In this document: positions 13,234 through 48,900 of the stretch, one piece after another
Numbering within the stretch: position 1 is the stretch's first letter
How the letters are laid out: every line of letters begins with the position of its first letter
Program-made: the position numbers and the translations under genes
Source: Glandiceps talaboti
Taxonomy: Eukaryota; Hemichordata; Enteropneusta; Spengelidae
Length of the DNA stretch: 64,000 bases
Reading direction: 5' to 3'
Assembly: GCF_964340395.1 (NCBI RefSeq)
Contig: NC_135566.1
Span: 15,297,001 to 15,361,000, forward strand
Notes under the pieces: generated by a model
The model's input: the letters and a program-made list of their open reading frames with translations, nothing else
Databases searched by the model: none
What the model was told of the DNA's origin: nothing

Positions 13234-13299
13234 CTTGACTGTTTATGTAGGTCTGTAAGATACAACAGTAAGTAAGTTAGATTCTTAGAAAAAGATGTG

Positions 13300-19950: not shown

Positions 19951-22900
19951 CAGAACATACTTTGCATACTAGGAAGTACGAACATTGAGTTTTACTTAAC
20001 CCAAAATTTTGAAATATTCAATTCAATTAAAAAATGTTACTGTCTGCATATAATTCCATTTAGCTTGTCTTTGTAATTCTACAGTGTATTTAGACTTGAC
20101 AATAATTTTCAGTGAAGTATACTTTGACTTGAGGTGCAGTTTCTCCTATATACACGTAGACCATCATGACCTGTCCGAATTCACTAGAATATTCTTGTTT
20201 GTTTCAAATAACATTATTCATGCATGACATCATGCCTCAACCAGCCAATCAGAACACTAGGAAATGACACACCCTTTACATACCCCTTAACCAGTAATAC
20301 ATCATTGACAGGGTCTATTGTTCTGTCACAGCTTGTTTTCCTCTATACCTGACTTGTGATCACACCACACTGGGAAAACAAGTTAACAATTGTCTACATG
20401 CATGTCTAATAAGGGCACTCTTTGAACAAACAACCATGGAAAATTTCCAACCTAGAAATTTCGTGATTCATCACCCTACCAAAACATATTACATACAATT
20501 AAGGACATGTTTATTATCTTATCTTATACAAGATGTAACAGCACAGAATTATGTGAAAGAATGTTTGTGTTGGCCACGTCACTAATCATGATAAACTCAG
20601 TACAAAGTCCTTACAGTACACTGATTAGCATATTCCATTTTCCCACTCTATGGGCAAAGGAAGCAAGCAGTTAACCCCAAGGTACATTACATAGAATGAA
20701 ATACTACTTTACGATTCAAGTCATGAAAAATGACTTCAGTGAAACCATTTAGATGTTAGATTTTACAGAACTCCGTCTAAGTTGAATGTTCACTGACCTT
20801 TACATTCTAATTTGTAATCTGCCAGTCAGACATTAATAGTACATAGCTTGGCAGTTAGTATATATATAAATCTCACAAATTTGCATTAGACAAATTAAGC
20901 TACCAGTGTTTCATTTCACATTGGCTTGTCACCAGCTGACTTGGACAATCCTCCTACACACCCCTAATATCTACCAATCACAGCACTGCTGGTACCACTA
21001 CCACCTATTGTGAACAGTATTGGGGCCACCAAGGAGATTTCACTTGAAAGATGAAATATGCCACAGTACGCTGTTCCATGTAACTACACTGTATAGCATT
21101 AGTACAACTTATACAAGGAAGTAATTATTTTAGGGAAGGGTTATTGTGCAAGCCATGAGTACAAAACAAGAAATACCAGATTTGCTAAAAGGAAGACAAA
21201 GTACCAGAAATCAAAGAGCATTCCTTAAAACAAGGACACACCTACCTACACACACACACACACACACACTAACAATATTACTGGTACATAATTAAGTCGA
21301 GCAACGATGATGTGGCACTTTGTTGGTGTAAACAAGTGACAAAAATATCTTCAGTTTTTCTGCATTTCTGAACCCATGATGCATTCTAAAATTCAGACAT
21401 CTGATATGTTCGCTACAATCTCTGATAACTGAAATAATATCTATGGGGAATGACCTTTTCAAGCAAACCTGGTCAATGCCCTTGGTTTACCGATTTATTG
21501 CACGTAAAATTTGCCTACGGAAGCCTACTTGCTGTTTACCATACACACAGAATGAGGTGTGATACAAAGACTTTCACTCTTATTGGTCAATTCTGATATA
21601 TAACAAAGGCAAGCCCTTGAGTACAGCATAAGAGCATGAACAATGGTCTCTTGGGTCACAAATGGATATAAAGAAAATCTTTCCTGGGTCCAGAACTTTT
21701 TAGGTCTGTGTGAAAGACTAACTCCGAGCATTGTGTAATGGCTAATGCACAGATGTGATAATACAAATTTCAATGACTTCATCTTTATTCACTGAAAACA
21801 TATTTCTTTAAGTTTAAAGGTTGGAAACCTTGCTATGCTTTAAAGCGTCACCCTCTAATTACCTTTTGTAATCAGAGCTTAGGAACGGCTTTGTATTTGA
21901 CCCGTGTTGCCATGCTAATGTTACTGGGGTCTCTACATTCTGTTCTTAGTCCCTGAGAATTGGTGTACATGCTTTAGCCATGTTAGAAATTCCTGTAGCC
22001 CATACATGGAAAGATGACCTTCTGTGAGTAGACAAGTAACCCCTATCTGACTCTTCTGAGTGGATCAATACTTACATGTCTAAGTATTGGTTACTGAGCT
22101 ATATTGACCTTCAAATGACCTAAGACGCATGACAATTTTTTTAATGTCACCTTCAATATACACTATATTGTGATAGCATGAAAGGCACAGAGCATTCAAT
22201 AGAATGGTAAATTAAATACTAGCTTTATTATCTCAATAATAGATCCATGGTATACATGTAGCATGGACAGTGGGCCACAACATTCTTTTTAAACTGCCTG
22301 GCACGGATATATTACAATGCAAAGCTATGTGCTTACATACATTTAAATATGTATCTCGATAATTATCATAAAAGAGATTTTGTAAATTTGGTACATGTAA
22401 AACTGTTTTTGATGCATGCAAAACAGTTTTTCCCCAGATTTCTGTTTATAACTTACAAACTCATGAACGACAACCAAATACGCCAGCAGTAAATATATCA
22501 GAATTGTATTATTCAGATATTTTACAATTCTGGTATTTACTCGTGCATGCAACCTGCTATTCATTTGTCGCCGTAAGCCTAAAGTCGTTCACGATCGCCC
22601 CTGTTCGAAGGAACGACGGACGTGGCACACTACATGTATTATTCGACCACGGATATCTTTGAGGAGACAATCTACTTGTACTATCGTACAATTTTTCTTA
22701 TTTTCACATCATGAAGGAAGGTGCACTAGGCACATGACAAGATATATATGTAAATATGCACTGCTTCATTGCTTTAGGTGTAAAACTCAACCGGTGTGAG
22801 ATTGTGAGCACATAATCACGAATAACATAATCCACCGCTTACTAATACGTTCGCCGTGCCTGGCCGACTACGTGACAGACTGAATGGCGAACCTTTGAAC

Positions 22901-23058
22901 TCGGCGTCTGCGCTGCAGATTGCCAGTCGACAAAATTACTGTGAAAAATCACCCTCAAACTTGAGATATTTGCAATTTTCGGCTGACATTTACACGACAA
23001 CATGTACATATATAAGAACGATAACAAATAGTAATTGTGAAGTTCAAAAGTAACTTAC

Positions 23059-23135
23059 CACTGGATAGATTTACAGAGAGCTTGACTAGCACTTGCCACA
23101 CACAGCTAAACCCAAGGCAGGAGGACACAATTTGC
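23059..23135 (-). other. Probable non-coding first exon of aldolase
   Basis: On the minus strand CCAGTG|GTAAGT at 23059/23058 is a strong donor. The aldolase start-codon exon begins with an acceptor and only 19 bases of 5' UTR, so an upstream exon is required. The sequence beyond is richer in CpG. The exon's 5' limit is a guess; transcript evidence is absent. Confidence 0.5.
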
Positions 23136-23200
23136 ATAAGACGTCACAATTGCCTCGGTCTGACGTTGCGATACGACGCCCTCATACTACGTTTTCATTG
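23130..23200 (-). promoter_or_regulatory. Candidate aldolase promoter with octamer and CRE-like motifs
   Basis: Just upstream of the inferred first exon, the minus strand reads TGTGACGTCTTATGCAAAT. That is a CRE-like TGACGTC next to a perfect octamer ATGCAAAT (23130-23137). CpG dinucleotides are more frequent here than in the introns. The assignment is inference from position and motif match. Confidence 0.35.
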
Positions 23201-23820
23201 TTTGTTCGTTTTCATAGACCTATACGTCACATTTATATTACACTCATTAGAATCGCTAACTGTTTGTAAGTCGCTATTTTTATTTGGTTCGATATAAAGT
23301 ACACAGATTTAAAAAAAAAAAAAAAAAAAACAATATCCATTTTTGACTTTAGTAAGATGATGTAATTATTACAAAATAATGCTTTCACATTCAATGCACG
23401 ACTTGGTTGATTTTTATTATCATGGACATAGCACAACTTCAGTAAAAGATAAACTTAGCTTTGGAAACATTCCTATTAAACATAAAAACACTATTCATTA
23501 TTGTAAGTGCTGCTCTGATTGGCTGGATTTCTATACGTACACCTGTACTGTAGTAATATTTAAAGGTCGTTTGTCATTATAGCCAACACGTCGCAATTTG
23601 GGTGTGGCAGAACATGTACACGTTTCAAAAGACAGCAAGCCAAGCCTATTAGTTCAAAGTACTAATTTTGAGTCAGTCGGACATGCAAATATAATTCATG
23701 TAATTAGACGGCATAAATATAATTGAAATGTATTTTCCGTTTGCATTTCCTCGTTCGTTCGTTATTCATTTGTCGGTTATACAGCGTTCTTATAGGACGC
23801 TACAATGAACAGCAGTTACA

Positions 23821-24270
23821 CACAGGGAGCTCAGGCTCAACACAAACAAGTAAACACACAAACAAACGAATAAATAAGTAAACAAACAAACAAACAAACA
23901 AACAAACAAACAAACAAACAAAAACAAATAAACAGGTAAACAAACAAAAACAAACAAAATAAACCGACAAATGAGTAGATACATACATGAGTAAACGACA
24001 ACAAACCAACGTACAAACACACATACTACCACCCCCCACCCACCCCGCATTAGTCACATTTGGAAATTTGCGGGAGAGGGGGGGTAGTGTTTGTTTGTTC
24101 GTTGGTTTGTTGTCGTTTACTCATATATGTATCTACTCATTTGTACGGTTTATTTTGTTTGTGTTTGTTTGTTTGTTTGTCTGTTTACTTGTTTATTCGT
24201 TTGTCTGTGTTTACTTGTTTGTTTGTATTTGTACTTGTAAACAAAACTAACTGAGCCTGAGCTCCCTGTG
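23821..24270. mobile_element. 450-bp fold-back element built of CAAA/TTTG repeats
   Basis: Perfect 19-bp ends (CACAGGGAGCTCAGGCTCA at 23821-23839, complement at 24252-24270). The arms are rich in CAAA on the left and TTTG on the right and pair over about 180 bases, including TAAACGACAACAAACCAACG. The centre is G/C-rich. Phe-Val-Cys-Leu open frames here are artefacts of the repeats. Confidence 0.8.
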
Positions 24271-26333: not shown

Positions 26334-27571
26334 TTACTGGGTAGGTGGAAATCCAACATCAACCTTTGGTAAATCATGAAATATGACTCTCATTCTGTTG
26401 ATAAGATAAAAAAAAAAGGTATGATAAAGGTCATACATGGCGACACTGTCCTGAGAAAATATTGACATACAATGTATAACTGTTAGTCAGCTCAGTACAC
26501 TAGTTGACATTTGACATTTGGTTAACATTTGACCTAAGACTAAAGCTGACTAGACATCTTTCAGATTTGTATCAACTTTTAAAATCATGTGATACTTCCA
26601 TGGTTAAACTGGTTATTACTCCTACCTTTTTCTTAAATACAAAGATGTATATACATGTACTTGCACTTAGCAAATATATGTACATTTTTGACCAAGGATT
26701 TGAAAACATATATTTCTCCTTGGAATGTAATTGGAATTTTATGATGAAAAATATGATCTCATGTATTAAACCTCTACAGCCTGACACTGAAGAGGATTTA
26801 GGGTGTAATTACAGAGAGTTACAGAAACCAAGTCATTAAAGGGTTAATTACATTTATACTTTGGAAAAGCACTCCATTCATATCAGTGGAGATTTTAAGT
26901 AAGGATAAACACATGATAAGAAGGTTATTACTAGTTTTTGGGGTGTTCGTGGATGAGAAATAGTAAGAATCATAGCCACCATTCCTACCTTCATGAACAC
27001 TTTAATTCTATAACCATCACCATCATCCAATTCACCACTAACCCTTACCTGCCACATGCAAGTCCCGTTTTCTCAGAAAGAAATTGAAATATCTCCTTCG
27101 AGTACTCCTGGTTTTTATCAGCAGGTCTGAACTTTTCAAAAGAACTCAGATAAAATGTTAGAGATGGCTCAAAACTTCCACTCAAAATAATTCGTTTATT
27201 GCTGAGAAGTGTCACTTGGACTCTCTGTTGAAAAAATATATAAATATTTTCTTTTTAATGAATACATGAAAATCTGGTTTAACAATACAGTAAATATGGC
27301 AATATTTTAGCTTTTCCTATCCATTGCACTGAGTTGTATTCTGAACACTTTTGACGAATCTGCCCCCTTTTCTGACAAATAATTCACAATGTACACCAGT
27401 GCAGTATGTACACTGTCAAATTACGACATGCAACAAGCGACCTGTTCAAGCCTGGACAATTACCTCTTCAGGTTTATCTAGTATTTTAGCAATCAACGCC
27501 GAAGTTTCCTTTAAAAACTCATCGGAGAACTTCTCATCTGGCAAACTTGTGGTAATTGTACACAGTGGCAT
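26334..27571 (-). CDS. DDT: MIF-superfamily tautomerase, D-dopachrome tautomerase type
   Basis: Three coding exons on the minus strand: 27571-27464 (108 nt), 27224-27049 (176 nt) and 26394-26334 (61 nt), GT-AG, phases 0 and 2, giving 114 residues. The intron positions equal those of the MIF gene at 1267-3424. It starts MPLCTITTS, so the catalytic proline is kept. The ILDKPEE and ILSGSFEPS stretches resemble D-dopachrome tautomerase more than MIF. The MIF CXXC motif is missing: the matching stretch reads FEPS. The end is R-MRVIFHDLP...FPPTQ. Likely role: cytosolic or secreted tautomerase of the MIF-2 type. Orthology to vertebrate DDT is likely but not proven; it could be a lineage-specific MIF duplicate. 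Confidence 0.88.
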
Positions 27572-27952
27572 CTTTCACGGGTTGTCAGACAATCAAACGG
27601 TACTGTGAACGTGACCGGGCTTCTTGCAGATGCTGGGGTCGTGTCTGTGCTGCAGCTGTCACCATGTGTGTGTCAGCTGACAACGTTGAGTTTAAAGGCC
27701 ACTGGATCATTCCTTATAATCACGATAATAGTGGACGAAGCATAACATTGCATGGGCGATTATTTTTATAACATTTATTATTTTTTCACAAAAAAATTCA
27801 AATTTATATTAATATGAAAGAAATTAACAAAAGAATGTGTTACTATAATTGCGATTTGATATAGAAATGCATGTAACTCTTCGTTTTATTTTGAGCCCAT
27901 CCATAAAAAATGGATTAAGCCGGAGAGGTCACTTTGCGTTCACAAATTCAAG
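27572..27952. promoter_or_regulatory. Shared divergent promoter interval, DDT-like / PISD
   Basis: The two start codons face away from each other over 381 bases with no other exon between. Such head-to-head spacing often reflects a bidirectional promoter. No TATA box is evident near either start. A TISU-like element covers the PISD start (27949-27960). Confidence 0.45.
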
Positions 27953-27960
27953 ATGGCGCT
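27949..27960 (+). promoter_or_regulatory. TISU/YY1-like start context of mitochondrial PISD
   Basis: TCAAGATGGCGCTG covers the start codon and matches the core AAGATGGCG of the TISU element (translation initiator of short 5' UTR), which is also a YY1 site. It is common in genes for mitochondrial proteins and suggests a very short 5' UTR. Confidence 0.5.
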
Positions 27961-30900
27961 GTCCTCTGTAATCACGCGTGGTATTACAAGGTAAGAGTTT
28001 CGTTTCATTACACATAACGTGTCCTCACTTCCAGTAACAGTTGACTCCTTCGCAAACTTCGCGAATAAAATAAACAAAGGCAAAAACATTTGAAATTCTT
28101 TGAAAAGAAGTTGGTGACGTTACCTGTGTGACTAACAATGCACACTAGATCATAGCTGGACTGTTCGTTCGTATAATACTACTAATACTGTATTAAACTT
28201 GTGAAACTTTTGATATATTATCGTTCGATGTTTCGTAACTGCTCTGATAAACTTGAACTGGCAACGATAGATCGGAAGACCTCAAATCGGTACTACGTGT
28301 GATCTACGTCGGATTTTATCAGTTCAGAAATAAGTCTCTGAAGGGAAACGATATGCAATTTTCCTGTTGTCTGTGTTGAGGGCGGTCATTCAACGCATAG
28401 ATCTATGATCAAAGTTCAACACATTTGACTACAAATCCTAAGTTATGTTTATATAATAAAACTTTAAAAAAAATAAAAGGGAAAACTATTCCTGTAATCG
28501 TGGCCAGGATCTCCCAGGATAGTTACAATACGATTACTTTATTGTCAACAGAATGCATACAATTTCAAAATTAAAAGAAAAAAGTTTTGAAATTTTTCAC
28601 CAAGGTTGTGCACATGCTCCTGACAACTATAGTAGTAGTAGCTGTGGAGTGTGGAAACTTTTCAGTATTTGATAGTTTTGATTGATAATTTGTATTTAAG
28701 TTGTAACATTCTTTGTGACATTACTGATGTTCTTTAATAGGAATGCCGTGTATCAAGGATATTGCTGTGAAGCTTTTCATATTTTAAGACCTCCAAATAT
28801 CCTGGGTCATGTCATCAGGAAGAATTGTAATAACAAAATATATCTTAATACACATAATTCTGTCCGGTTCAGCAGCAGAGGTGAGTACATTATGAATGTT
28901 TCTTACTTTGTAAAGTTGTCATGTAAAAATTGTTTATTGCCATTCAGATATCGGACAGAGTCTAGTCTGATAACATTGCATATATCCAAGGTCTAACACA
29001 GTGCTACTTCTTCATCAGTTTCTGCTTCCAGTCAAAAGTAACGCTGCTATCAGTAGGAGCCATATTGGCTGTGTCACTGCATTTGTAATATCAAAACATA
29101 AACATGTGTGTTTGCTGTCATACCATGCACGAGCAAGGTTCAACAAAAAAATATGGAATATATACTCCGGTCATTCTGTGTCACAACAACACTCATCTAT
29201 GTCACAACAATGCATGTCTACATCATTAGTTCTGCTGTGTTTGAAATATGAGTCAAAATGTTCAAAATTACCTTTACTTTCGCCATTTTCTAATCATCTG
29301 ATAAGGCAAAGAAAAAAATAATAAATTGTGTGTTTCCGATACGGTGGCCTCAGAAAATAGAGTAGGTAGGTCAGGATGATATTTTATTTTTAATTGTTGT
29401 TATTTTTGAAAAAGATTGCTTCAGTCCAAAAACAAACAAAATGTTTGTCAGAATACCCCTTCTGTGATAGTTTGATGAACTATGTACAGACATCACTGAT
29501 GGGGAAAGAAAACAGATGTACATGAAGGTCAAGAAGACTGAGAATTTCTTATCTTTTTGTTTTGAATGTTTATAAAAATGTTTAGGGTCGGCAGCTTATC
29601 AGAAACATAGTTTCTTTTTGCATAATCTAAATTATGCTTATAATATTTGGGAAGGAATAAAATAACATTGATTTAGCACTATATTTATGGTGGTCTCTTA
29701 TCACAGAAGAGTCCAAGTTTATGAGAAAAAAATGATGTGTGTTTACACTGTAGTAGTAGTTGAGTGCATATCACCATCTTAATTACAAGTTTAATTTGTA
29801 TCGCAGTCAACAAATCAGAAATTAGATGAGGTCGGCTGGTTGCGATATGTACAGTATTGTTGTGTGGGAACTTTCAGACATATCATGAATACAAGAGTGA
29901 CATGACAAGTATTGGAGAGCCAATATTATTTGAACCGTTCAAAAATGAAAAAAGAATTGTTGTGAAGGAAGACTTTTCATTGTTTCAAATCAGACTCTTA
30001 CTATCTTTCAAATCCATCTAGATTCAAGAAATTCTTCAAGTTGGACATTTCGATCCTATTCCAGTGTCAGGAATTATTTGTCTTCCCTGAAATGGGTGCC
30101 TATTCCGTTGGGTGTAGGCTTTGCTTACATCTGTTATCAACAGTTTGGACATATCAAAGAAAGAGAAAGGAGAAAGATCCAAGGAATACAACATCCGGAA
30201 GAACTGTTGGCCTCAGATTTTCAGGTAAGATCGTGTAATAATTATGTAATTCACTTGAACATAGACACAAGGGTCCCAAGTTGAAATTGGGATTACTTGT
30301 AGGTGACACTGGGACGAGTTGAAATTGGGACAAAGTGAATCGCAATCTGTTTGTACACAAGCAATTTCAGTGGTTGAAATCAAGATAATATAAGTTACTA
30401 AACGTTGGCGATGCAACCAAAAGAGTGATTTTGTATCAAAACAGCCCTTCTTTTACAGTGGAAGTCTATGAGATATGGTTATATAATGTTTCCTAAACAT
30501 TTGGCCAAAGTTTATGGGATGTTCCATCATCCCGTAGGGGTGTTTTCATGTTTGAAGTGTGTTTCTCTCACTGTATGTGTATGTCAGACATTGGATTTCA
30601 GTTTTGTGCACATTGCCATTGGCAGTATTTTTGAGTATTTTCTCAACCATAAAGTAGTCACTAAGAAATAAATTTTTACCACATTATTCATGCACACAAA
30701 GGTAATATGACACATTTCAAATAGTTGACAAATACAAATACAAAAGATACAAAACAATATTATACAAAACACTTCTTTGAATGAATGAATGAAGGAATGA
30801 ATTACATGGAAGATGTTTATGAATAGAAAGTGGTTTTGGAAATGTCAGCAAATCTTTACAATTTGTGTACAATACAATATAAGCCATACTGCTGGTGATG

Positions 30901-33900
30901 TTGATGTCTATTTTGAATCTGTACATGTGTAAGGTCAATGACCCTCAAGGATGAAAACCGCAACCAGTTTCCATGCTTTCTTGCATGCCTTTCACAATGA
31001 AAATACTGAAATTATACACAATACACACATCTTTACTTTGAACACAGTTACCAAGGTTACTGATATACTTCAAGCTATGTCAGTCTATGTTATGGTTCTT
31101 CATGATATATGGTGGCTCTCACCAATATCTATCTCCTTGAAGGTCAATAAGCCGTTTTTCGTCTCACAGCAGACCTCACAAAATCCCGCGTGAGCCTTTG
31201 CATTCATACCAACAACTTGAGGGTGGTCAAGCTGAAAGTGTCAAATGCTTAGCAACATTATTGTTCTCAACATCATTGCACATGGCCAAGGTGAAAGCTT
31301 GACTATGATCACATGTTTGACAACCGTTGTTGTTAGGCATATTTGCATATCTCATGCGATCTGCAAGGAGATGTAAAATCCCTTATTGGGATGTCTTCGT
31401 TTTCTCTCCTTCAGTATTTCTCATCTGCTCCATTTCATTGTTGGTAGGGTTGGAGAAACTCATCAAACTACTCAGACCCAAGGTTTGTTATAATGCCTTT
31501 GATTGGGCATGGGGGAAAATGTCACAAAGTGGTAACATCTTAGAAATTGGTACATTGTTAGAGAGTAGTGCAGACCAACAACTTTCATCTCCTCAGTCTT
31601 ACTACCCCACACTTCTAGGCTGACTGACACTGTCTGACAAAAGTATCTTGATTGACATTTCAACACTGGGCCATCATGATAACTATTCAATACGCCAGAT
31701 ATCAGAAAAACACAAGATCGTACAGTTTGGCCACTAGGAGTGCTGTTTCGAGGCTGACTAAGCATACATGTGGGCATATGGGTTTTCTGGTTTTCGTGTG
31801 AAATGCATGTTAATTTTATGAAACATATATGGTTATGTTCATTATAGGACCACATATAAAAAAATACATGTTTGCAATTTTTATCTTCAAAATTAGTTTG
31901 AGGGGGCTAAAATAAAATTTGGCCCCAAGACCCTATTCTTAACAATTGGTTAGGCAATGAAAACCCATGAATCCATGATTATAGTCAACTTCCATTGATA
32001 TGGCCTTAGCAACAGCCAACAATGCCAGTATATTTTGCAAAGATAACAACATTTTTGGTTAGTCAGGCAAAAAAAAATATCAAAACATGTATGCAAATAT
32101 GCCTATGAACAAGACCATGTCCATAGCAACAGTCAGAACATTATGTATATTGTAAAGATAACAGTAATTGGTAGGTATATGTAAGGGCAGCCTGAATTCT
32201 GTTTCTCATGACCCAAACGACCCTAAATGTCTTCAATGAGATGAAAAAAATTTAAATTGACGCCCTCTATGGCAGGGTTAGGAAACCCATGAGTGCGTAT
32301 CTGAATGAAAATTATTGTTTATCGCTGAAATTCAATAAAAGAAACAGTTCAAATGTTCCTTCTGACTTTACTTGTCATTCAGAATATTAAAATATGATTA
32401 TGAATTGAAAGTATCACCAACAAGTACTCATAAACTTACTATTTTTAAAAACAATTATTTTTAATTGTTAACAGACTCACAGACCAATCATTTTAAAGGT
32501 TTTACAATGGCAAACATAGAATTAAGGGCAGTATGTGGATAAACATGCAAAAATGGACAATGTTTTCCAAAGCTACGTTTTGTTTATTGATGTAGTAACT
32601 AATGGATATGCAATATCATTTGTGGGAGCACAGAATTTTTCTTTCGACAAGGCGTGAAGGAGCAGCAATATAAAGTTTGGCCTTTACTGAAGGCATTCAG
32701 TTTACACCTGGTATAAACATATTTTTGATCAATAGCGTAGCATCAATTGAATCGTTACTATACAAAGTTATGTATTCGACTGAATAGACCCAATCATTTG
32801 TATTCAAAACTATCGTCTAGTCTCTCACGGCATTATGTTGTATGCATTGTCTACGTTTCTACTAGTATAGCTATTTGGTTGGCGTTACATGTCAAGTGAA
32901 AGGAACAACGTGAATAGACGTGTTCTCCGCTGTTACATTTGATTACGTTATTTCATCGAAATTCTAAAATAAAACAGAATAAAGGACAATGTAGTACAAA
33001 ATAAAGATGATAAATTCAGTATCTGAAGAATATCTTTTCTAATATTTCAAAGGAACAATATGAATATATGCATATTTAGTTTAGTTATTCATCGTGAAGG
33101 TACTCTTACATTCGATTACGCAACGAAATTCCTCTTGGTCAGTCATGAATAAAGGTTGAAAGTAACAGCAGAGACGCATTCCAATGTACCACCCAACCCC
33201 AACCACCAACCCACCAGAAAATAGCATCTTTAATCAAATTTTATTGCATTGTTAGCTATCATTCCACGTGTTTTAGTACTCAAAGAAAATCTGACATTCA
33301 AATCCTCAACGTAAACAACATGGAAAATACCCTTCTACATCTTTTGGTAATTCTCATACACAAATAACCTTTATTGCTGGGAATAAGTAGTCACATGCCA
33401 ACTTGATGACTAAGTCTATCTCATTTTGACACCATTGCAAAGTGGAAATTAATAAGCACTCATGCCTTTAACAACGATTCATTTACTTTTTAATATTATA
33501 TTTCTACAGAACGTAGAGGGAGAACTGCATACAGAACAAATAACAAAAACGTTCTAAAGTAGCTGCTATATTGACTTTTTTCATTGCTCTAGACAGTATC
33601 TCAATTGGTCAAAAGTGGGGGTAAAACATTCTAAAGGTTTCTAAAGGTGTTTTACTGAGTGATGTTTCTTTTCTATCTAATATTTGCAAGACGTCCAATT
33701 TATGTAACTTGTATGCTAATATTGAGAGGTAAAATTTCAAATTTTGCGTAGACCTAAACTTGGACTCTATATCCTGTGTAGAATGTACCTGTCCAGGATT
33801 CAATACTACATGTGTAGATACGTATTAAAACCAGATGCCAGATCTGAAAAGGAATATTTTTAACGTGTGTATGTACACTTGATAACAAGTCACATCAATA

Positions 33901-36900
33901 CGCCGAAATTGGTCAAAAGGACATATCATTTGGCAAGGGTAGTTCTATACAATAAATGAATGCCTTTATTGTAGTCACAATAACCCTTTCTGGCAAACTG
34001 TTCCAAATGTCTATGACATATTGACTGGAAAAAATATTTACGTATATCCAATCTGGATTAAAATAATTACTAAGTAATTACAATGATTTAATTGGTGTAG
34101 TAATAACAATAACCCTTTCTGGTAAACTTCCAAATGTTTACAACATGTCGACTGAAAAAATATTTTGGTATATCCAATCTGGATCTGTCTTTAAATCATT
34201 TCAATCTATATCCTCTTGTTGTCGAAGTAGATACTTTGAAAAATACAACTGGATCATGGCGAATATGTAAATGGAAAAGTTTATACACTTCAAGCAAATC
34301 AGCTCTAATTCATCTAGTTTCTAAAGTTGTCAGTTTCAATATGCGTAACTGTCCTCATAATTCGAGCCACCAAGCTGCGGAATCATCCTGGTGAACCGAC
34401 GCTGCACTTTTTCCAAAAATGTAATATTCCTATTCGTATATATGTGGGGAAGACACTGGGGAAGCATAGTCAAGGTGTAGACTTACTAGTGCTTTAAAAG
34501 ATAAAAACCAACCAGAGTATTCATAGTAACTGAAATAATTCATGGTTGGCGTACATTTTTGAAAGAATAGCAATCAGCAACATCAAAGAATACAGGAAAT
34601 CAAATACACAGGTAGCATCATACATAATATGCAAATGATATGCAAATAAAGAAACCATAATTTATAATATTGTGATTAAAATGCAAAATTATACAACTGT
34701 CTACAAGATTATAGTCTACAGGATGCCCATTAGTACATTTATACAGATATAAAGCAATCGTACAGTTCACATATTTTAATTTGCCATCAAAATATACAGA
34801 CAAATCATGATTTTACATCATTTATGAAATTGCTGCAAAAATTACCCTTAATATTGAAATAAAAATTGCCAACATATATTTTTTAATTGCTCAGATGATG
34901 GGGAACACAATGAGATACGTTGGCAAAAATTAACCTGAATTTCACACGAAACCCCAAAATCTGCCATATGCCCCCGCATGAGGCCTTGAGGACCATGATC
35001 GATGAGTCCTGGTATACACTCACTCCTTTGAAAAAATCATCACTTCCCCAGTATCAGTATTTCACTGCAAAAGTTGGTGACATCGTCAACCAGTGAAAGC
35101 ATTCTGCTAACTTAGATAGAAGTGTTAAGCCTGACAGAACTTTCCCTGAAAATGGCATGAAGGTGACAGTACTGCAGTAGGAAAAAAGGAAAAAGCAAGA
35201 TTTTGGTTATATTCTCGATTTCTTACAATCTCTTCCTTCAAGTCAGAATTAGTAAGAGGAGCTGTAAAAAATGTGATGTGCACTGTACCTACCCAAACTC
35301 GAACAATTTAAAGTATTGAAATTTGAATGCAGAAGTTAATTTTAGTGCCGTACTTTTACACTGGTGTATCTTGTTGGATATTAATTTGTCATTCTCCAAT
35401 GCTCCAAGTCACTATGCATGTCACTTGTATTGCGCCCTCTGTTGATGACATTTCAACAGGTTTATTATTGAGTGACTGGCCCGTGAGAGCTTTTATCATC
35501 GTATTTCGCCGCTTCACCTCAAAGGCGTGACTGTCTGTACCAACCGCTCTCTGTTATGGATGTTTTAGGTTAAATATATACGGAATTCTCCGTCTAAATT
35601 GTCCAAAAATCCTATGAAATAAATAACCGTCAAAATGGAAGAGTGGTTACCAATTGAGTACATTTTCCCTGATCTGTGGACGGTGACGGCAACGCTAACA
35701 AGCCTACTACCAACCTTTCTGGTGCTAAAGCTATGGAATTTTTGGGAATGGTCTCGTCTCCAGGTTCGTTAGTACACCCTTTCTTCATAGTCCTCCGTTC
35801 AGCACACCTATTAATTGGCGCACAATATTTGAATGTTAGTGTAAATGAAATCGACGTTTTACATGCGGCTGTTAAACGTGATATAATGTAGTTTTGCATC
35901 GTATTAAATGTCAACTTGGATAATGTATTTTCGACACCTGAATAATTTATTATGTTGTGTGTGTGAATGGATTATTCACAGTTACTATCACCGACTAGAT
36001 TCACGTATATTTTACTCGGAAATACCAGTTTCGTTTGTTCGGCGTGTAAGAAACACACCATGCATTATTGAGAGAGAAGACTGTTGAAATTTCTATGTGT
36101 AAATGGGTAAGAGCAAAGAAATGAAACTACTATCGTAAGATTATGGGGCGCGGTCATGTTCTTGAAAATTATGACATTGTCAATGAGATGTCTCGAAAAT
36201 TTTCACCGGTTAGATGTACGCGCTTGAGCAGACAATGTCATTATACTTGGCCTTGGTATTATTCTAATTTATGTTCTGGTGCAGACATAGTATTATCCTC
36301 AAAAATGTAATTACTACGAGACACAGACACACGTCAGTGTAGTGTTGTCAGTCCACGATCCGACAACTCGTAGCATGTCACCCGGTCTTCAGGAGTACAG
36401 GGGGATATTTCGCTCAATATTTTGTCATTTGTTAATTTTATGTTATTTGTAGCGTGGAATCCATTTCTGCGTTATTACGCTCTACTCTTATTTTCTACGG
36501 CGCCAATACCACGATGATGAAAGCAGAATTCTAAGTAATATCCTGGGTGTAGTGTTGTACTTGTAGCCAACAATCAGGGTTGGCTTAGCATAACGCGTGG
36601 TTATTTTGACGCATTTTTGAAGTTTGTTGACTTCTTGATGTCAAGGGAACAAAGTCCTGTCTGAAAGGGTGGTTGTATGGCTTCTTGAACAGTTTTGTTT
36701 CACGGACTTGCTCACATGGTCTGAATTATTTTTGTGATAAACAGCATTTAGAATGTTGTACTTTTCACAATAATATTTGTGAAAAAAAATGCCTTTTTTA
36801 CTTTTTTACTCGTGTGATTTTAACAGTGTCACACATTTCGAAATGTGAGAAATATTGTTTGGTCAAATCATGTGAATAGGGTAAATTTATTTTTTGGGAA

Positions 36901-39900
36901 AAGAGGATTTTCTTTTTTGTGATTGTCTAGATTTAACTTTGTATTACTTTTCTTGGTGTTACTATCTCAAGAAACTCAACACTTAAGAAAGAGCTTCTTG
37001 AGATAGTAACACCAGGTCTAGTCACTGAGACATTGGGTTTCACTGACTGACTGCCATCTTACAAAGGTAAAGAAAACCCCAATTTTTCCCTACTACATGT
37101 ATAACCTCTCCCCAAATGACCAGTCCCACATAACATTTCTAAGACATCATATACTGTACAAATATGTGGAACAATAGAATCCTCTTGTCAGCTCCACTAT
37201 TTACATAGCCTAAATCCTTCCCTTGGTTATTTTCAACACTCAACAAGTTAGATTTAAAAAGTCAGCTAGAGTTTATGCCCCCCCCCCTCCCAACTCTTCA
37301 TTAAAGAAAACTATTAAATTCAAAAGTCTAAATGACTATTGAGAGGATATATAGCCAAAGTCAACCAAGTGAAAAATCCAGACTACTATGTACTGTTTTG
37401 GGGAAAGCGTCTGGGCTCATTTTAAGGGAAACAGCATACCTGTCAGCAGTGGTACCATTCATTATAACGGTTGGCTGATCTGGAACTATACAAGATTTAC
37501 TAGCCTATACATACCATGAAAACTTTACTTTTATACCATTTCTGCTGGTGCTCCATTCCTACAATGAAATCACAATACAAATACTCATTCAAGGCTTCCA
37601 CTGTCCAGTTTGTCTTTTTGTTTTTTGAATTAGGAAATACCTTCAAAGCCGTACTCATTTAGTGGGAAAAATGAAAATATTTCAAGTGTTCTCTCCTAAT
37701 AATAATTCAAACTGTCATAATCATAAGATGTTAATAACAGTATGAAATATTGAATTACTTCAATAAACTACTTAAAGGTCCATGTAAAGATATCAAAGAG
37801 GTGAAAATTAACAATGTGTATGAGTGGATATTAACAATTGTGCTGTTAACCTTTGTTCTTATGTCCTTTTAGTAGAGGTTAAAACACATCTGATGTTCTC
37901 AACACATTAATCTTTAGACTTTGTACTTTGAGAAATCATTATCAGCTGTAAAATAAATGTTTTTTATTGAAATTTCCATTCTTGAATGTTTATGTAAAAA
38001 TTTATGGTTTTATACTTTGTTGTGAAAAAATACTATTATTGACCTTGTATACATGTAATTCATTCCAGTGACTAGATTTAACTAGTCCACCATTGTGGGC
38101 TTTTGATTTTGTATGCTAAATCACCTTACTTCATATTTAAATAATTGTCTACGTTTCTACTAGTATAGCTATTTGGTTGGAGTTACATGTCAATTCAAGG
38201 GAACAACATGAATAGATGTGTTCTCCGCTGTTACATTTGATTACGTTATTTCATCGAAATTCTAAAATAAAACAGGATAAAGGACAATGTAGCATAAAAT
38301 AAAGATGATAGATTCAGTATCTGAAGAATATCTTTTCTAATATTTCAAAGGAACAATATGAATATATACATATTTAGTTTAGTTATTCAGCGTGGAGGCA
38401 CTCTTACATTCGATTACGCAACGAACTTCCTCTTGGTCAGTCATGAATAAAGGTTGAAAGTAACAGCAGAGATGCATTCTAATGTACCACCCAACCCCAA
38501 CCACCAACTCACCAGAAAATAGTATCTTAAATCAAATTTTATTGCATTGTTAGCCATCATTCCAAGTTTTTTATTACTCAAATAAAATCTGACATTCAAA
38601 TCCTCAACATAAACAACATGGAATGTACCCTTCTACATCTTTTGGTAATTCTCATACACAAATAACCTTTATTGCTGGGAATAAGTAGTCACATGCCAAC
38701 TTGATGACTAAGTCTATCTCATTTTGACACCATTGCAAAGTGGGAAATTAATGAGCACTCATGAAATGCCTTTAACAACGATTCATTTACTTTTTAACAT
38801 GATATTTCTACAGAACATAGAGGGAGAACTGAATACAGAACAAATAACAAAAACATTCTAAAGTAGCTGCCATATTGACTTTTTCCATTGCTCTAGAATG
38901 TATCTCAATTGGTCAAAAGTGGGGGTGAAACATTCTGAAGGTTTCTAAAATGTGTTTTACTGAGTGATGTTTCTTTTCTATCTAATATTTGCAGGAGATC
39001 CAATTTATGTAACTTGTATGCTAATATTGAGGTAAAATTTCTAATTTTGTGTAGACCTAAACTTGGACTCTATATCCTGTGTAGAATGTACCTGTCCAGC
39101 ATTCAATACTACATGTGTAGATACATATTAAAACCAGATGCCAGATCTGAAAAGGAATATTTTTAATGTGTGTATGTACACTTGATAACAAGCGACTTCT
39201 GTCGTTTAGATTTCAAAATCAGTTCAAGAGAATTCGAAAAGGACCGTACGCAAGCGGAGTTGCTAAACTACAAACTCCACGATCACATCTATTGTAAGTA
39301 TTCATTGCAGATTTGAATGTCGTGTACTAGGACATGTTTTGTTGTATTGTCATGTGTGATGGCGATTTTTTGCCCAAAACTCAACATATAATCTATACAC
39401 TGAAAGTTTATTTTTAGGACCAGACAGACTATTACGTTGCATTATATAAGCTTACACTCAAATGTTATGTTACAACATGACAAACTTTCACAGACACAGA
39501 CAAACCGATAAAAGAGTCGCGTGAACCACAGACAAGTACATGTGTGTGCATGAACAGAGGGGCGCGCCCGGTGTTGTTTTTGTACCAATATTTGTCAGTT
39601 TGATAGTGATAAGAAGTAGACTTTTTTTCGTTCTGATCACAGGCGTTTCTATATAACTCCTGCAATGGTAGTATATGTACGAATATACAGCGTCAAAATG
39701 ATTTAATGTGTATGTGTACATATAATGGGAATATTGATTAACGTTCAGTATATGCAGTTGTCATGGGGAGGGTCATGTTTTACAAAATGGGACAAAGGGG
39801 AGGGTCACTTTTTACGAATGGAGAATGGGGGAGGGTCATGTTTTTCTTAACAGACCATGTGTGATTTCCTCCGCCCCCTGTAAATATTGAAGGCTCCCTA

Positions 39901-42900
39901 AACCAACCAGAGTATTCATAGTAACTGAAATAATTCATGGTTGGCATACATTTTTGAAAGAATAGCAATCAGCAACATCAAACAATACAGGAAATCAAAT
40001 AAACCTGAAGCATCATACATAATATGCAAATGATATGCAAATAAATAAGCCAGAATTTATAATATTGTGATTAAAATGCAAAATTATACAACAGTCTACA
40101 AGTTTATCGTCTACAGAATGCCCATAAGTACATTTATACAGATATAAAGCAATTGTACAGTTCACATATTTTAATTTGCCATCAATATACAGACAAATCA
40201 TGATTTTACATCATTTATGAAATTGCTGCAAAAATTACCCTTAATATTGAAATAAAAATTGCCAACATATATTTTTTAATTGCTCAGATGATGGGGAACA
40301 CAATGAGATATGTTGGCAAAAATTAACATGAATTTCACACGAAACCCAAAAATCTGCCATATGCCCCCGCACTACTATCTATGATCAAACAAAACAAAAT
40401 AACTGTAGGCATAATACACTTTACATTCAATCCTCAAGTTCACTGTTATCACCACAAAACAGGTGAATAAAGAAGTCAGTTCAATTCAATAATTATAATA
40501 TAGACTATTTGATTTTTTTTTTCAAACTACCTAAATTTCAATGTCTCACTCTCAGTATTCACAAATAAAATTTGACATGTTTTCTGTTAATGAATCATGC
40601 ATGTTGTTGCTCTTATATTTCAAAAAAAAAATTTTATGCATTATTCTAAAGTGAAGTCAACCTATCAAATAGTACAGCTAGGAGCTTGATACACTGAGGG
40701 TTGAGTCTATATATCTCGAGGTCAAAGATTGTGTTCAGTTTTATACTTGGCTTTTTGATGATCTGGACTGTCATCTTGCCCCCACAGAGAATACTTGTTC
40801 AAGATAATCCAGCACTGAGCAGTAACTGATTAAGATAGGTCACCTTCCACAAAGGGCAATGTAGAAACTTGTTCATGTTTTAGGAAATTTGTAACCTTGG
40901 AAAGGGCATTGAACTATTAATTCTTATCTGTTGAAAATATACATAGTATCTCTTCTGCTTTTGAGGCAGCTTGTTGTAAATGTTTTTTGGGCCTGATGTC
41001 TTTCCTACTAAAAAAATTAGATTATGTATAATTATTTTAGAACTATATATGTGGTCTTTCAAGTTAACCCAGCAGACTGACAGGCAACCAATGAACCATA
41101 CGACATACAAGTTATTTAAAAAAATGATGGTGTCTTTATCTGAGGTTTAAACAATTTTTTTTTTTAAAAACACCAATAATTTTTATACATATATTTTCTA
41201 AAATCCCAGGGAAGAAGGGAATTCAGTTTGTTTGAAACTGAGATTTATTCTCTGACTTTGTAGTGAAGTATCAGGCATTATGGCATGTTACAACTGTTGC
41301 CTGTTGTGTGTATCTCATTAAGTATGCAGTCAGCATGTTGCGAAACATGGGGTGAGTTGTGACATCACACATCTCCTGATGTTTCAGATTTACCCACAAT
41401 GCATAGAAACAGGAACCGAGCACGTCGGGCTGTTCCATTTTAGTATGGCCGAGGAAGCATAGATCAGTGAGGGACATAATGGACTTTGGAATTGAACACG
41501 CTAGGAATGAATGATTTTGATGCTTTTTGATGCTTTTGATTTCGATGCAGGGTCAAACTAGTTGTTGTAGGGAAAGAATATATTAAAGTATAAAGGTCAT
41601 CACAGGTTATGAAATGTTGTTTGTTTGTAAAATGATGTGTAGGGGAATACAATTGTATGCTAATGAGCTGTAGCAAAACATATCGGGAGTACAGTACAGG
41701 CATATACATCTCTTTTCTATATATATCAGTATTTACGTTATTCAAGCGTCAACCTCGACTGAACCACCGTCATTTAATCATGCGTCATTGAGGATTATTT
41801 TTAGTTGTGAAGTTATTATATAATTGTACACAGAATTCATATTTCTCAGTAGTTGTTGTTGACAGTTTATATCCTGTGGACTATTTTGTAGTGTGGAATT
41901 ATCATACAATATGAAAATTCTAAAGAAGCAGTTGTCGTCTGCTGTCAGACTCTGCGGTAGGATGACTCCCAAAAGATTGAAATTGCCCAAAAAGTTTAAA
42001 TTTAGTTCTTCGGTGCTGAAATTTCCAATGAAACGGTTGACAAAGTGGAGATCTAAAATTGGCAAACGTCTGCCTCTCACAACAGCACAGTTACAGTTGT
42101 TGTTGCTGTTAAGGACAGCACCTAGTCGCCAGAGGGTAAGATGGCAAAAATTTTCAGTGTAAATTTTTTTGTGTTTATTTGTAACTTTGTTTTGGGAAAT
42201 TACAGCAAGTTGTATTATTATGTAGTAAATATGCAAATTTTGCTTTGCTTATTTCTTTCTATGTTTCACTTGTATATTTTGTTTATCTTTTTTTTCATCG
42301 ACAGATCAACTTGTACAGAAAAATTCCTCTTCGTTTTACATCACGCCTTTGGGGCCAAGTGAACAATGTAGAAGTACCACAGTGGTTGAGGACACCAATC
42401 TATCAACTTTATGTCTGGTTATTTAATTGTAATATCTCTGAAGCTGCAATAGAAGATCTACAGTATTATAAAAATTTACAAGAATTTTTTCGCAGACAAC
42501 TGAAGCCAAGTGTTCGACCATTAGACAAAGAACACAGTGTTGTAAGTACCATAATTTTTATTCTGTGTATTAATTTGGTTGCCAGACTCCTCTTACTCCA
42601 TGTGCTAATATGATATCAAATCATCTCTATAAAGAGAGATCATGAGAGTTGATGCCCCAGATAGCACTAGACTAGATTCTCCTGTACATGACAAGTGTCT
42701 TAAAATGAAATATGGTCCAGGGGTGTCCCTGTTCATAATTTTGGGTAGGCTAGATGCTATCCGTGGCTTTGAATCTTACTATTGAATATAGTTTAGTATC
42801 TTGGATTGGTGTGGAGCCGAGAGTGTTATTGAAAGAAAAAAATGGGATTGTTAATTTCTTGACTCAAAAAAGTAAAATGTGTATTTTGAGTGGTCAAGTA

Positions 42901-45900
42901 CGTATTTAAAAATTTAGATATTGACCATGATGTGTCATATCAAAATAGGACCTTGTGGTAATTGCTTGACTCTAAAAGTAAAAAAATAATAAATTTTGAA
43001 TGATATGAAAATATGATGGTGGACAAGTTTTTAGAAGGGAGTATATTGTTATTGTGTGACTCACAATATATTGAACAGGATATTGTCCGTCATTAGATCT
43101 TTGAACCCAGTACAGATTTAGTTCTATAGCTGTCAGATAGGTCAAAGGTCAAGAACTACCTAAATACAGTCCTTAAATATAACTGATAAGAAGTTTATTG
43201 ATTACAGATAACGATATTTGTATCATATTTATTTTGAAAACATAAACTACATGGTATATAAATATAGAGAATTGTTTTTTTTATAAAAATGGACTTTTAG
43301 GTTTGGCATTTGACATCACAAATTTGTAAGGATGAATTTTACTGATTAAATTTTTAATATTAATATTAATATAGTTTTGTGAATGTTGAAGCTTTTCATT
43401 TGTCATTTGGACATATCAAGTACTTATAAAGTAATAAAAGTATGTGTGAAATAATCTTAGCCATGCTTGCATACAGATAGTCTAGTTCCTGATGGACTGT
43501 ATTCCGTACTATGTTATCTGCATACTATACCATCTAGTCAATCCCGTTACTCTCGCACAGAATTCTGTGCTCCCCCCAACAGCATTCATATAAACATGAT
43601 GATGTTGTCTCGTCCCCACATGATTTTAGTTTAAACAGACAGGAGGTGGTTAGACATTTTCATATCATATCAGTCCTAGATCCTAGAGACATAAGAAAGA
43701 TGACGACAGCCTGTTAATTTGTGATGGATTACTACTGACGTGTGCCGTTCACCCTTCGCCCACCGTGGGGTTGAACCACAATTAACGCCTTGAGTAATGG
43801 GATTGACTAGACAGTATAGTATGATGATAACTGTATGGAATACAGTCTGTCAGAAACTAGACTAGCACTGTAGCAGACAGAGTGAGTTAGGACTTGATTC
43901 TGACAATCCCCTTGTCCTTTCTCTGACTGCAAATAAATAGGCACTAAACCTGGACTTGCTAGCAATGCAAGTAACTAAAGAATTTACTGGTCCAGCAGCA
44001 AAAAATTAAGTGATAAATCAACTGTCTAATTGCCACAACTACAATAGTCCCAGCTATAGCCTGAAATCCATACAAATGAAAGTTTTGAATCTGTTATTTC
44101 CCTATTACAACTATAAGTTGGGGAAACCAAAATTCAAAATCCCTAATTGTCCAGATTCTAGGCTATCCATGCCATGATGTCCGCAAATCTTTAGTGACAA
44201 CGTCAGAATTATGTACTGTACTCCGTCTGCTAGACTGTAAGATGCATCGTGCCATTCCGCCATCTCTCTGTCACAGGTGTACCATGCAGACTGTTCATCT
44301 ACAAGCAGGACTGTAATTATATTTGAGAATTGTCGGACATTTTGTTTTGTAAACACAATGTATCATCAGTTTCAGACACCTCATGATCTATCATAAGACC
44401 TATTGCAATAATATTGACTGTACTAAGTGGCGTAATCATCAAGGAATTGAATTATGATTGTAGCATACCAAAGGTTGATTTCATTACCTAAAAATAACTT
44501 GTATAACCTTGTGAAAGTTTACCATTCACTAAAACCATGGTCTGTAAGATATAGACGTTGCGTGCACTCACTAAGTTAATAAACCTGAGAGGGCTGAACA
44601 ACACAACATATCTTAGTCGATAAAAAAACATTGACCTACCATATAGTATATACTCTGAAACGTAAACCTCAGTACTATGACCCCTCTTATAGTGATCATT
44701 CCATTACAACAAACATGTTTTCAGATACCCTAAACTTTTACAACCAGTAACACTGAAGTAAAGCACTTTCTCTATGTGCTACACTCATTTATATAGCATT
44801 CATATCAAGTGTAAAAGTATACTCTTTCAATTTGTATATTTACAAGCCTAGCATGTGGCCTTTCTAATATGGTCAATTAGCAAATGAAACACTTGATATG
44901 GATGCTATAAACAAGTGTGGTACATACAGAAAACGCTTTACTTTGGTGGTATGGGTTGTATATCCCATAGAGTATAATATGCTTCACTAAAACAAATATT
45001 TCATAACTCCTCCCCACCGCACCTTTTTCCCATGTCGTAAACTTAATCAATGCGAGTTCGTCAAATCATTAAAATGTACGATCATTTCTGGTTGTGACAA
45101 CAACCACCAAATGGGAAAGAAGTCTATCGATTTCAGAAATTTGTGATCACCAAAAAGACTTATGAAAAGATTTATGAATCCATAAAATAAGGTTTTTGTA
45201 GCATTCAAGTAGTTGTTTATTCATTTACTGTGCAACATTCCATTCTCAGGCCATGCGATCTAATTGAAATCATGCTGGATATAATACTATAAATAAATAC
45301 TCAAGTTGTGTTCAAAATAAAGGTGTTGGCGTACAAGTAACATATAAACAAAGCATGTAACTTGCAGAATTTAACCTCGGAGTACAATACATAGAGGAGG
45401 AAGCTCTCATGTTTTATTCTGGAGGAGGAAGCTCACATGTTTTATTCTGGAGGAGGAAGCTCACATGTATTATTCTGGAGGAAGCTCTCATGTTTTATTC
45501 TGGAGGAAGCTCTCATGTTTTATTCTGGAGGAGGAAGCTCTCATGTTTTATTCTTGGGTTAGGAAGCACAATATCAAATCAGTACAAGATATGTATGTTA
45601 TAGTATGTAGATGCTTGAACATTTTATATGTCAATAACCTCACATGGTTTATCACTTGGCACTAAAAAAAACAGAGAAAAAACCTTACATTGCATTGGAA
45701 AGAATCAGAAAAGCACAAGTGTTACCAAGTGTACCACAAGACATTGATTGTTATTGATATATCATGTGTTTCTCAAGAAAGAGAAAATTCTGGAATATTA
45801 CAAAAGAGGTGGTGGTAGTGGGAGGGGGGTGGGGGTGGGGGGGGGGTGGTTGGCCCCTTGCCATGTCTGCCTCCTACCTACGTGCATGAGCCTGGAATGG

Positions 45901-48900
45901 CACCACTTCTCGAAGTCACGCTAACCGTCTAATGCTGTAGCCAATCAAATGACTCCCAAACTTGTAACCAATCACTGGTCATGAAAACCCCACCACACGA
46001 GATTACATCAACATCACTGTGGCATCACCTTGCCACTTATTTTACTTCATTTGTATCCAAAAGAACAAAACTTCAAAAGCCTCTCTAAGGCTCAACATAG
46101 CTACATTAGTGCGGGGGCATATGGCAGATTTTTGGGTTTCGTGTGAAATTCATGTTAATTTTTGCCAACATATCTCATTGTGTTCCCCATCATTTGAGCA
46201 ATTAAAAAATATATGTTGGCAATTTTTATTTCAATATTAAGGGTAATTTTTGCAGCAATTTCATAAATGATGTAAAATCATGGTTTTTCTGTATATTGAT
46301 GGCAAATTAAAATATGTGAACTGTACGATTGCTTTATATCTGTATAAATGTACTTATGGGCATCCTGTAGACGATAAACTTGTAGACGGTTGTATAATTT
46401 TGTATTTTAATCACAATATTATAAATTCTGGCTTATTTATTTGCATATTATGTATGATGCTTCAGGTTTATTTGATTTCCTGTATTGTTTGATGTTGCTG
46501 ATTGCTATTCTTTCAAAAATGTATGCCAACCATGAATTATTTCAGTTACTATGAATACTCTGGTTGGTTTAGGGAGCCTTCAGTATTTACAGGGGGCGGA
46601 GGAAATCACACATGGTCTGAAAAACATGACCCTCCCCCATTCTCCATTCGTAAAAAGTGACCCTCCCCTTTGTCCCATTTTGTAAAACATGACCCTCCCC
46701 ATGACAACTGCATATACTGAACGTTAATCAATATTCCCATTATATGTATACATACACATTAAATCATTTTGACGCTGTATATTTGTACATATACTACCAT
46801 TGCAGGAGTTATATAGAAACGCCTGTGATCAGAACGAAAAAAGTCTACTTCTTATCACTATCAAACTGACAAATATTGGTACAAAAACAACACTGGGCGC
46901 GCCCCTCTGTTGTAGGTTCATGCACATACATGTACTTGTCTGTGGTTCACGCGACTCTTTTATCAGTTTGTCTGTGTCTGTGAAAGTTTGTCATGTTGTA
47001 ACATAACATTTGAGTGTAACCTTATATAATGCAACGTAATAGTCTGTCTGGTCCTAAAAATAAACTTTCAGTGTATAGATTATATGTTGAGTTTTGGGCG
47101 AAAAATCGCCAACACACATGACAATACAACAAAACATATACTAGTACACGACATTCAAATCTGCAATGAATACTTACAACAGATGTGTCTCTGCTGTTAC
47201 TTTCAACCTTTATTCATGACTGACCAAGAGGAAGTTCGTTGCGTAATCGAATGTAAGAGTGCCTTCACGCTGAATAACTAAACTAAATATGTATAATATT
47301 CATATTGTTCCTTTGAAATATTAGAAAAGATATTCTTCAGATACTGAATTTATCATCTTTATTTTATGCTACATTGTCCTTTATCCTGTTTTATTTTAGA
47401 ATTTCGATGAAATAACGTAATCAAATGTAACAGCGGAGAACACGTCTATTCATGTTGTTCTCTTGAATTGACATGTAACTCCAACCAAATAGCTATACTA
47501 GTAGAAACGTAGACAATGCATACGACATAATGGCGTGAGTGAGAGACTAGACAGTAGTTTTGAATAAAAATCATTGGGTCTATTCACTCGAATACATAAC
47601 TTTGTATAGTAACGATTCAATTGATGCTATGCTATTGATCAAAAATATGTTTATATCAGATGTAAACCGAATGCCTTGAATAAAGGCAAAACTTTAGATT
47701 GCTGTTCCTTCACGCCTTGTCGAAAGAAAAATTCTGTGCTACCAGACATGATATTGCATATCCATTAGTTACTACATCAATAAATAAAACGAAGCTTTGG
47801 AGCTTATTGTTCATATCCTCTTCTGTAAAATTTGAGTTTGGATCAATGGAAGTTGACTATAATCACATGGATTCATGGGTTTTCATTGCCTAACCAATGG
47901 TTAAGAATAGGGTCTTGGGGCCTCATTTTATTTTTAGCCCCCTAAGACTAATTTTGAAGATAAAAATTGCCAACATGTATTTTTTTATATGTGGTCCTAT
48001 AATGAACGTAACCATATATGTTTCATAAAATTAACATGCATTTCACACGAAAACCCATATGCCCCCTGCACTACATTAACCATGCCCACAAAAACAATAT
48101 TTTCACACTTTTCTGCGAACCGCTAGAAAATATTATGTGATTCTTGAATAGGGGTATATGTATGTCTAATTGTGAATGTAGTTGTCAGTCAGTAAGATGT
48201 ACAGCCTTTTTAACTAAGGGGGTATTTGTTTGTACACCAAAAACTACAAGTTGGGATAAAAACAGGATTAACCAGCTCCAGAAACTGAACAGTTGTATAT
48301 TGGTTTTCTTCCAGGTCAGTCCTGCAGATGGTAAAGTACTACATTTTGGTAAAGTAGTACGAAGTCATGTGGAACAAGTAAAAGGTGTAACTTATTCATT
48401 GAAAGTATTCCTAGGACCAAATACCTGGACAAACAATAATGACAAGGCAGCATCTAACTATATGTCAGACATGGAAGTAAGTACCAATCAATCTTAACAT
48501 GTATTCATAAGACTAATTTTTCAAGATATGCAATGTACATATAAGTCTGCCATTTTTCTGTCTGGTACATTTTCAACCTCCATACTTCACCTGGTACCAC
48601 AAATTCATATTCTTTGTATGCACAAAGAGTATGTCGGTAGCCATTAATTTGCCTCATCAGTATACGTCATATTCAAACCCCCCAGTGTGTACTTGGATGT
48701 CTCCAAACAATAGAAACTAATCAGCATAACAATAGGTTATGTTCATATTCAAATCAGCCGATATGCTTTGAGAAAACCCTATGGTGGTAAACTCTGAATT
48801 TGCATCAATTGCAATTTCTCTAATCAGTAAACTTGTGGTTGTTTTATTAAGACTGGAAACAAGATCCAAGACCTCAGTTAAGTTTCTTACATATATATAT

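Follow-up and report, generated by a model that had tools for sequence, protein, structure and literature searches.

The gene for phosphatidylserine decarboxylase (PSD), PISD, lies complete on the plus strand of the 64-kb stretch of Glandiceps talaboti contig NC_135566.1 analyzed here (the window). From its anatomy we favour, with modest confidence, a reading in which this single-copy gene has three alternative first-exon sets, all of them used: exons E1 to E3, and two single exons, B and C, that lie in intron 3 (12,080 bases, E3 to E4). Each set ends in phase 0 at a GT donor and can be joined in frame to E4, which also begins in phase 0. The first-pass annotation of this DNA had proposed this arrangement, and its coordinates, ATGs and frames proved correct on recalculation. 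The exons and the elements associated with B and C are as follows.

27953-27990, plus strand: PISD exon 1 (E1), start of the mitochondrial-type leader, inside a CpG-rich block (27401-28660)
28741-28880, plus strand: PISD exon 2 (E2), leader
30022-30224, plus strand: PISD exon 3 (E3), leader with membrane segment, phase-0 end, donor CAG/GTAAGA
35201-36860, unstranded: CpG-rich block with 58 CpG and an observed/expected (o/e) ratio of 0.99, candidate promoter region of exon B
35635-35763, plus strand: candidate alternative first exon B, 43-amino-acid leader, phase-0 end, donor CAG/GTTCGT, start context CAAAATGG
41817-41851, plus strand: candidate exon C promoter, TATA box TATATAAT (41817) and initiator (Inr) TCAGTA (A+1 at 41848)
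41911-42135, plus strand: candidate alternative first exon C, 75-amino-acid leader, phase-0 end, donor AGG/GTAAGA
42305-42541, plus strand: PISD exon 4 (E4), where the common body begins in phase 0, at the human leader-swap junction
48315-48476, plus strand: PISD exon 5 (E5)
48920-49064, plus strand: PISD exon 6 (E6)
49394-49554, plus strand: PISD exon 7 (E7)
50200-50427, plus strand: PISD exon 8 (E8), LGST motif and stop (50427)

The eight exons encode a typical PSD. The common body matches the PS_Dcarbxylase family (PF02666, E 4.2e-59) over profile positions 1-197 of 198, and exon 8 contains an LGST motif, presumably the autocleavage site of the enzyme. The E1-E3 leader (127 amino acids) contains a membrane segment, as the first-pass annotation had stated, and resembles the human mitochondrial leader. 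Full-length isoforms would comprise 437 (E1-E3), 353 (B) and 385 (C) amino acids, and all three frames are open to the stop at 50427. A PF02666 search of the genome (590 Mb in 47 contigs; of 20 contigs inspected, 19 measure 21-36 Mb) gave four matches among four candidates scored, all within E5-E8 of this gene, and so revealed no second PSD gene.

The position of exon 4 is shared with human PISD. Kumar et al. (2021, PMC7938800) describe an exchange of the human mitochondrial leader for a lipid-droplet (LD) leader at residue 107/108, and the E3/E4 boundary (residue 127/128) aligns exactly with this site. With its phase-0 ends and human-matching junction, the sequence anatomy would suit the joining of an alternative leader where the mitochondrial leader meets the body.

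Exon B has a strong Kozak start context (CAAAATGG) and lies in a CpG-rich block resembling the block at E1. For CpG content, the 500 bases around the B ATG reach the 98th percentile within the window and the 95.8th in the genome sample, compared with the 96th and 91st at E1; the mean CpG o/e of 500-base windows is 0.40. The B leader had been described in the first-pass annotation as a short anchor with a 20-residue hydrophobic stretch. An uncharged hydrophobic core is present, with a central proline (LLP), but its longest uncharged run is 18 residues (14-31). A single-sequence model predicts one helix at residues 12-42 (mean pLDDT 86.5). Net charge is -4 in the N-terminal flank, +1 in the C-terminal flank and +4 in the next 15 common residues, a pattern that, by the positive-inside rule, would place the catalytic domain on the cytosolic side of the membrane. 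Just past the CpG-rich block is a short near-palindrome (36954-37014, 84% inverted self-match) that could form a hairpin.

Exon C ends at a strong donor (score 9.0) and encodes a leader of unusual, non-random composition. As the first-pass annotation had stated, the leader is acid-free and rich in Lys and Arg, with 22 K/R and no D/E among 75 residues. Neither 20,000 composition-matched random open reading frames (ORFs) nor 115 genomic ORFs included one that reached the resulting net charge of +22 (genomic maximum 11), and the remaining five frames of this DNA encode 3 to 10 K/R. The N-terminal stretch is amphipathic and basic (moment 0.57) and looks like a mitochondrial presequence; a 14-residue uncharged run follows near the junction. 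The predicted structure of the C leader alone is of low confidence (mean pLDDT 63.1). Upstream, the TATA box and Inr are spaced by 31 nt, and the A+1 is 63 nt from the C ATG. One further TATA and Inr pair occurs on the plus strand of the window (40708/40737) and none on the minus strand; this second pair, at 40708-40737 in intron 3, has no matching first exon.

To estimate how often such exons arise by chance, we defined candidates as ATG ORFs of at least 40 codons with a phase-0 donor scoring at least 6. In intron 3 only B and C pass on the plus strand, and one ORF passes on the minus strand. Counted on both strands of 19 control loci (190 kb, with genes included), B-type candidates are expected 0.95 times and C-type candidates 0.064 times per such intron; the corresponding values from Markov simulations are 0.40 and 0.010. 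By ORF and donor alone B is at chance level, and these two features therefore lend it little weight, while for C a chance origin is unlikely. Further evidence raises both, C through its composition and TATA/Inr and B through its CpG block and Kozak context. When a good Kozak context and a position inside a CpG-rich block were required together with the donor score of at least 6 and the length of at least 40 codons, three candidates remained in 2 x 49.56 kb, which corresponds to about 0.05 expected in the 1.66-kb block of B. Without the block condition, there are nine candidates with good Kozak context in 380 kb of strand. Taken singly, and with the alternatives below counted, exon C is quite likely to be a first exon of PISD and exon B is probably one.

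Several observations weigh against the use of both exons, and each is given here with the alternative that it bears on. The strongest alternative, which we nevertheless consider unlikely, is that the gene has two forms only, E1-E3 and C, and that B is a chance ORF in a CpG block serving as an enhancer or as the start of another transcript. This would agree with the 0.4-0.95 B-type candidates expected per intron, with a weak donor (GTTCGT, score 6.3) and with a hydrophobicity that is ordinary (p 0.11; matched or exceeded by 124 of 523 genomic ORFs). Additionally, 49.6 of the 190 kb of the control sample (about 26%) fall in CpG-rich blocks; such blocks are therefore a loose guide to promoters, and the one at B is no proof of a promoter. 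However, the donor scores of E4 (5.6) and E7 (7.7) resemble that of B, and a chance ORF would have to combine a strong start context with a predicted helix and a joint expectation of only about 0.05. With the two sequences aligned at the junction, its hydropathy also matches that of the human LD segment (r 0.71, shuffle p 0.027), which that of C does not (r 0.12, p 0.39).

The converse, with E1-E3 and B as the only forms and C an ORF that arose by chance immediately before exon 4, is improbable. At exon C there is no CpG block, with 12 CpG in the 500 bases that surround the ATG (the 73rd percentile of the sample); the start context has no G at +4, and the exon is also open in one frame of the minus strand. 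Acid-free ORFs are not rare in the genome (17 of 115, the listed ones mostly simple repeats); among random ORFs they amount to 0.27%. A charge of +22 without acidic residues is nonetheless beyond all nulls tried, the donor is strong, and there is a TATA/Inr upstream. Outside the window such pairs number two in 380 kb of sampled strand, or about 0.001 per 200 bases, a rarity that is weakened by the choice of the pattern after inspection of the sequence.

Similarly improbable is the use of the mitochondrial form alone, with both ORFs accidental. A codon-usage test gave no support to either exon: null ORFs scored as high in 226 of 672 cases for B and 47 of 140 for C, and frame 2, with stops skipped, scored above frame 0 in both. 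The test had little power, as true PISD exons spread from -24.3 to +3.4 bits (-2.7 to +3.4 for held-out E4-E8 and -24.3 for E1-E3; B scored -3.9 and C -5.4). Comparison of the two leaders with the human LD leader gave no sign of sequence homology (local p 0.80 for B and 0.69 for C, against shuffles of the human sequence); local, global and junction-anchored tests were all non-significant, with a lowest p of 0.23 (B, global), and homology of B or C to that leader was rejected. The LD form arose first in fishes according to PMC7938800. Independent signals at both B and C argue against two accidents. Least probable of all, B or C might be real coding sequence of another transcript (a nested gene or a short alternative protein) or have some other use; promoter-type blocks could serve other transcripts, but both exons end in the sole phase that fits exon 4, in-frame stops lie directly upstream (35620 for B, 41860 for C) with no in-frame acceptor-like site, and nothing similar to either was found elsewhere in the genome.

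Other origins were considered and rejected. No acceptor-like site (pyrimidine fraction at least 0.7, scanned over the 400 bases before and the 120 bases after the ATG) yields an in-frame cassette exon between E3 and E4 for B or C. Each exon has a single match in the genome and the repeats of intron 3 lie outside both, which speaks against a transposon origin. A Pfam search of B+E4, C+E4 and E1-E3+E4 returned no family at E up to 1. A sigma-70 promoter scan was set aside as not meaningful for animal DNA.

Alternative PISD leaders in this organism are thus probably real, and in the reading that we prefer three first-exon sets, each with its own start site, would splice to the same acceptor at exon 4. 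E1-E3 would give the mitochondrial inner-membrane form. Exon B, from its CpG-rich block, would give a short form whose leader is a helix with an uncharged core, an acidic N-terminal flank and a basic C-terminal side. Its catalytic domain may face the cytosol on the endoplasmic reticulum (ER), possibly on lipid droplets, which would make it a functional counterpart of the vertebrate LD form (PISD-LD). Behind its TATA/Inr promoter, exon C would supply a basic, acid-free, presequence-like leader followed by a short hydrophobic stretch. We infer the transcription of B and C, their splicing to exon 4 and the cellular sites of the two forms; promoter choice would then set the site at which phosphatidylserine is converted to phosphatidylethanolamine.

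The window contains six CpG-rich blocks: one at E1, one at B, two in intron 3 that overlap transposon copies and two upstream of PISD. The E1 block also contains the start of a minus-strand gene (27571), presumably MIF-like, about 380 bases upstream of E1 and head-to-head with PISD; a bidirectional promoter is likely, as one block covers both starts. The longest block (22161-24240, 70 CpG) may be a distal promoter of a minus-strand gene with a first coding exon near 13.2 kb. From its ORFs we take this gene (exons at 10432-13240) to encode fructose-bisphosphate aldolase, and another on the minus strand (59357-62258) is apparently pescadillo. Several copies of one repeat, mostly 93-98% alike, occur at 32846-33889, 34505-34978, 38144-39192 and 39284-40374 in intron 3 (direct) and at 46107-48055 in intron 4 (inverted). 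There are weaker inverted matches (about 77%) between 31772-31895 and the ends near 34973 and 40366, suggesting a DNA transposon bounded by terminal inverted repeats. Intron 4 also contains a minisatellite-like run at 45392-45560 with units close to GGAGGAAGCTCTCATGTTTTATTCT.

In the mitochondrial contig of this assembly (51,222 bases) a 15,435-base unit is repeated in tandem about 3.3 times, which is probably an assembly artefact. The gene order is ND1-ND2-COI-COII-ATP6-COIII (COI by family search, the others recognised from sequence). ATA occurs at conserved Ile sites of COI. No AAA codon occurs in the body of COI or in the frames of ND1, ND2 (a 227-codon stretch), COII, ATP6 and COIII, while two occur in a 685-codon ND5-like frame. 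Set against hemichordate mtDNA in general, these features indicate an enteropneust rather than an echinoderm.

The common body described here aligns with PDB 6l06, which we take to be E. coli PSD, in an alignment that starts 11 residues before exon 4. To our knowledge, bacterial PSD has no organelle-targeting leader, and yeast Psd1 is not sorted by means of alternative first exons. Yeast Psd1 likewise places one PSD at two organelles, the ER and mitochondria, with sorting dependent on metabolic state (PMC7938800).

In the titles and abstract openings listed we saw no alternative first exon in an invertebrate PISD. No paper in the literature searched combined 'hemichordate' with 'phosphatidylserine decarboxylase', and 'PISD-LD' appeared in one. 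We tentatively propose that a non-vertebrate deuterostome possesses three PISD forms, one mitochondrial, one cytosol-facing at the ER or lipid droplets and one with a basic leader under a TATA promoter, and that leader swapping at precisely this exon boundary dates from the deuterostome ancestor or earlier. The first-pass annotation had likewise supposed an old swap with a third form; the junction at human 107/108 and the promoter-type signals agree with this, whereas homology to the LD leader does not extend to B or C. If true, the proposal challenges the origin of PISD leader swapping in fishes given in PMC7938800. A shared junction and two further candidate leaders in a hemichordate gene suggest a hinge that predates the individual leaders, and a fixed core on which one targeting leader can take the place of another. 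The site of phosphatidylethanolamine production matters for mitochondrial shape and fat storage.

The closest known system is the vertebrate pair PISD-M and PISD-LD, in which, as described in PMC7938800, one PSD gene likewise places unique leaders on a common body at the same junction residue. In human, LD targeting is determined by residues 36-103, which include a proline-rich hydrophobic stretch (47-63) and an amphipathic helix (70-93) that extends into the common part; GFP carrying the LD leader alone also went to mitochondria (PMC7938800). A conserved amphipathic helix opens the common part here as well (moment 0.45, compared with 0.42 in human). Exon B has a proline-containing hydrophobic segment near the junction (18 uncharged residues with LLP, 10 residues from it), whereas C, with 14 residues, has one only in part. 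The most hydrophobic 17 residues end 10 (B), 9 (human LD) and 5 (C) residues before the junction. There are two candidate alternative leaders here and one in human. Unlike the human LD leader, B has an acidic N-terminus and is predicted to be a single helix, and C is far more basic (+22 compared with +11), resembling that leader only in length (75 and 73 residues), scarcity of acids and the short hydrophobic run near the junction. Either B or C, or neither, may correspond to the LD form. The type of arrangement is known from vertebrates; what appears to be new is the proposed three-leader version in an invertebrate deuterostome, together with the conserved hinge.

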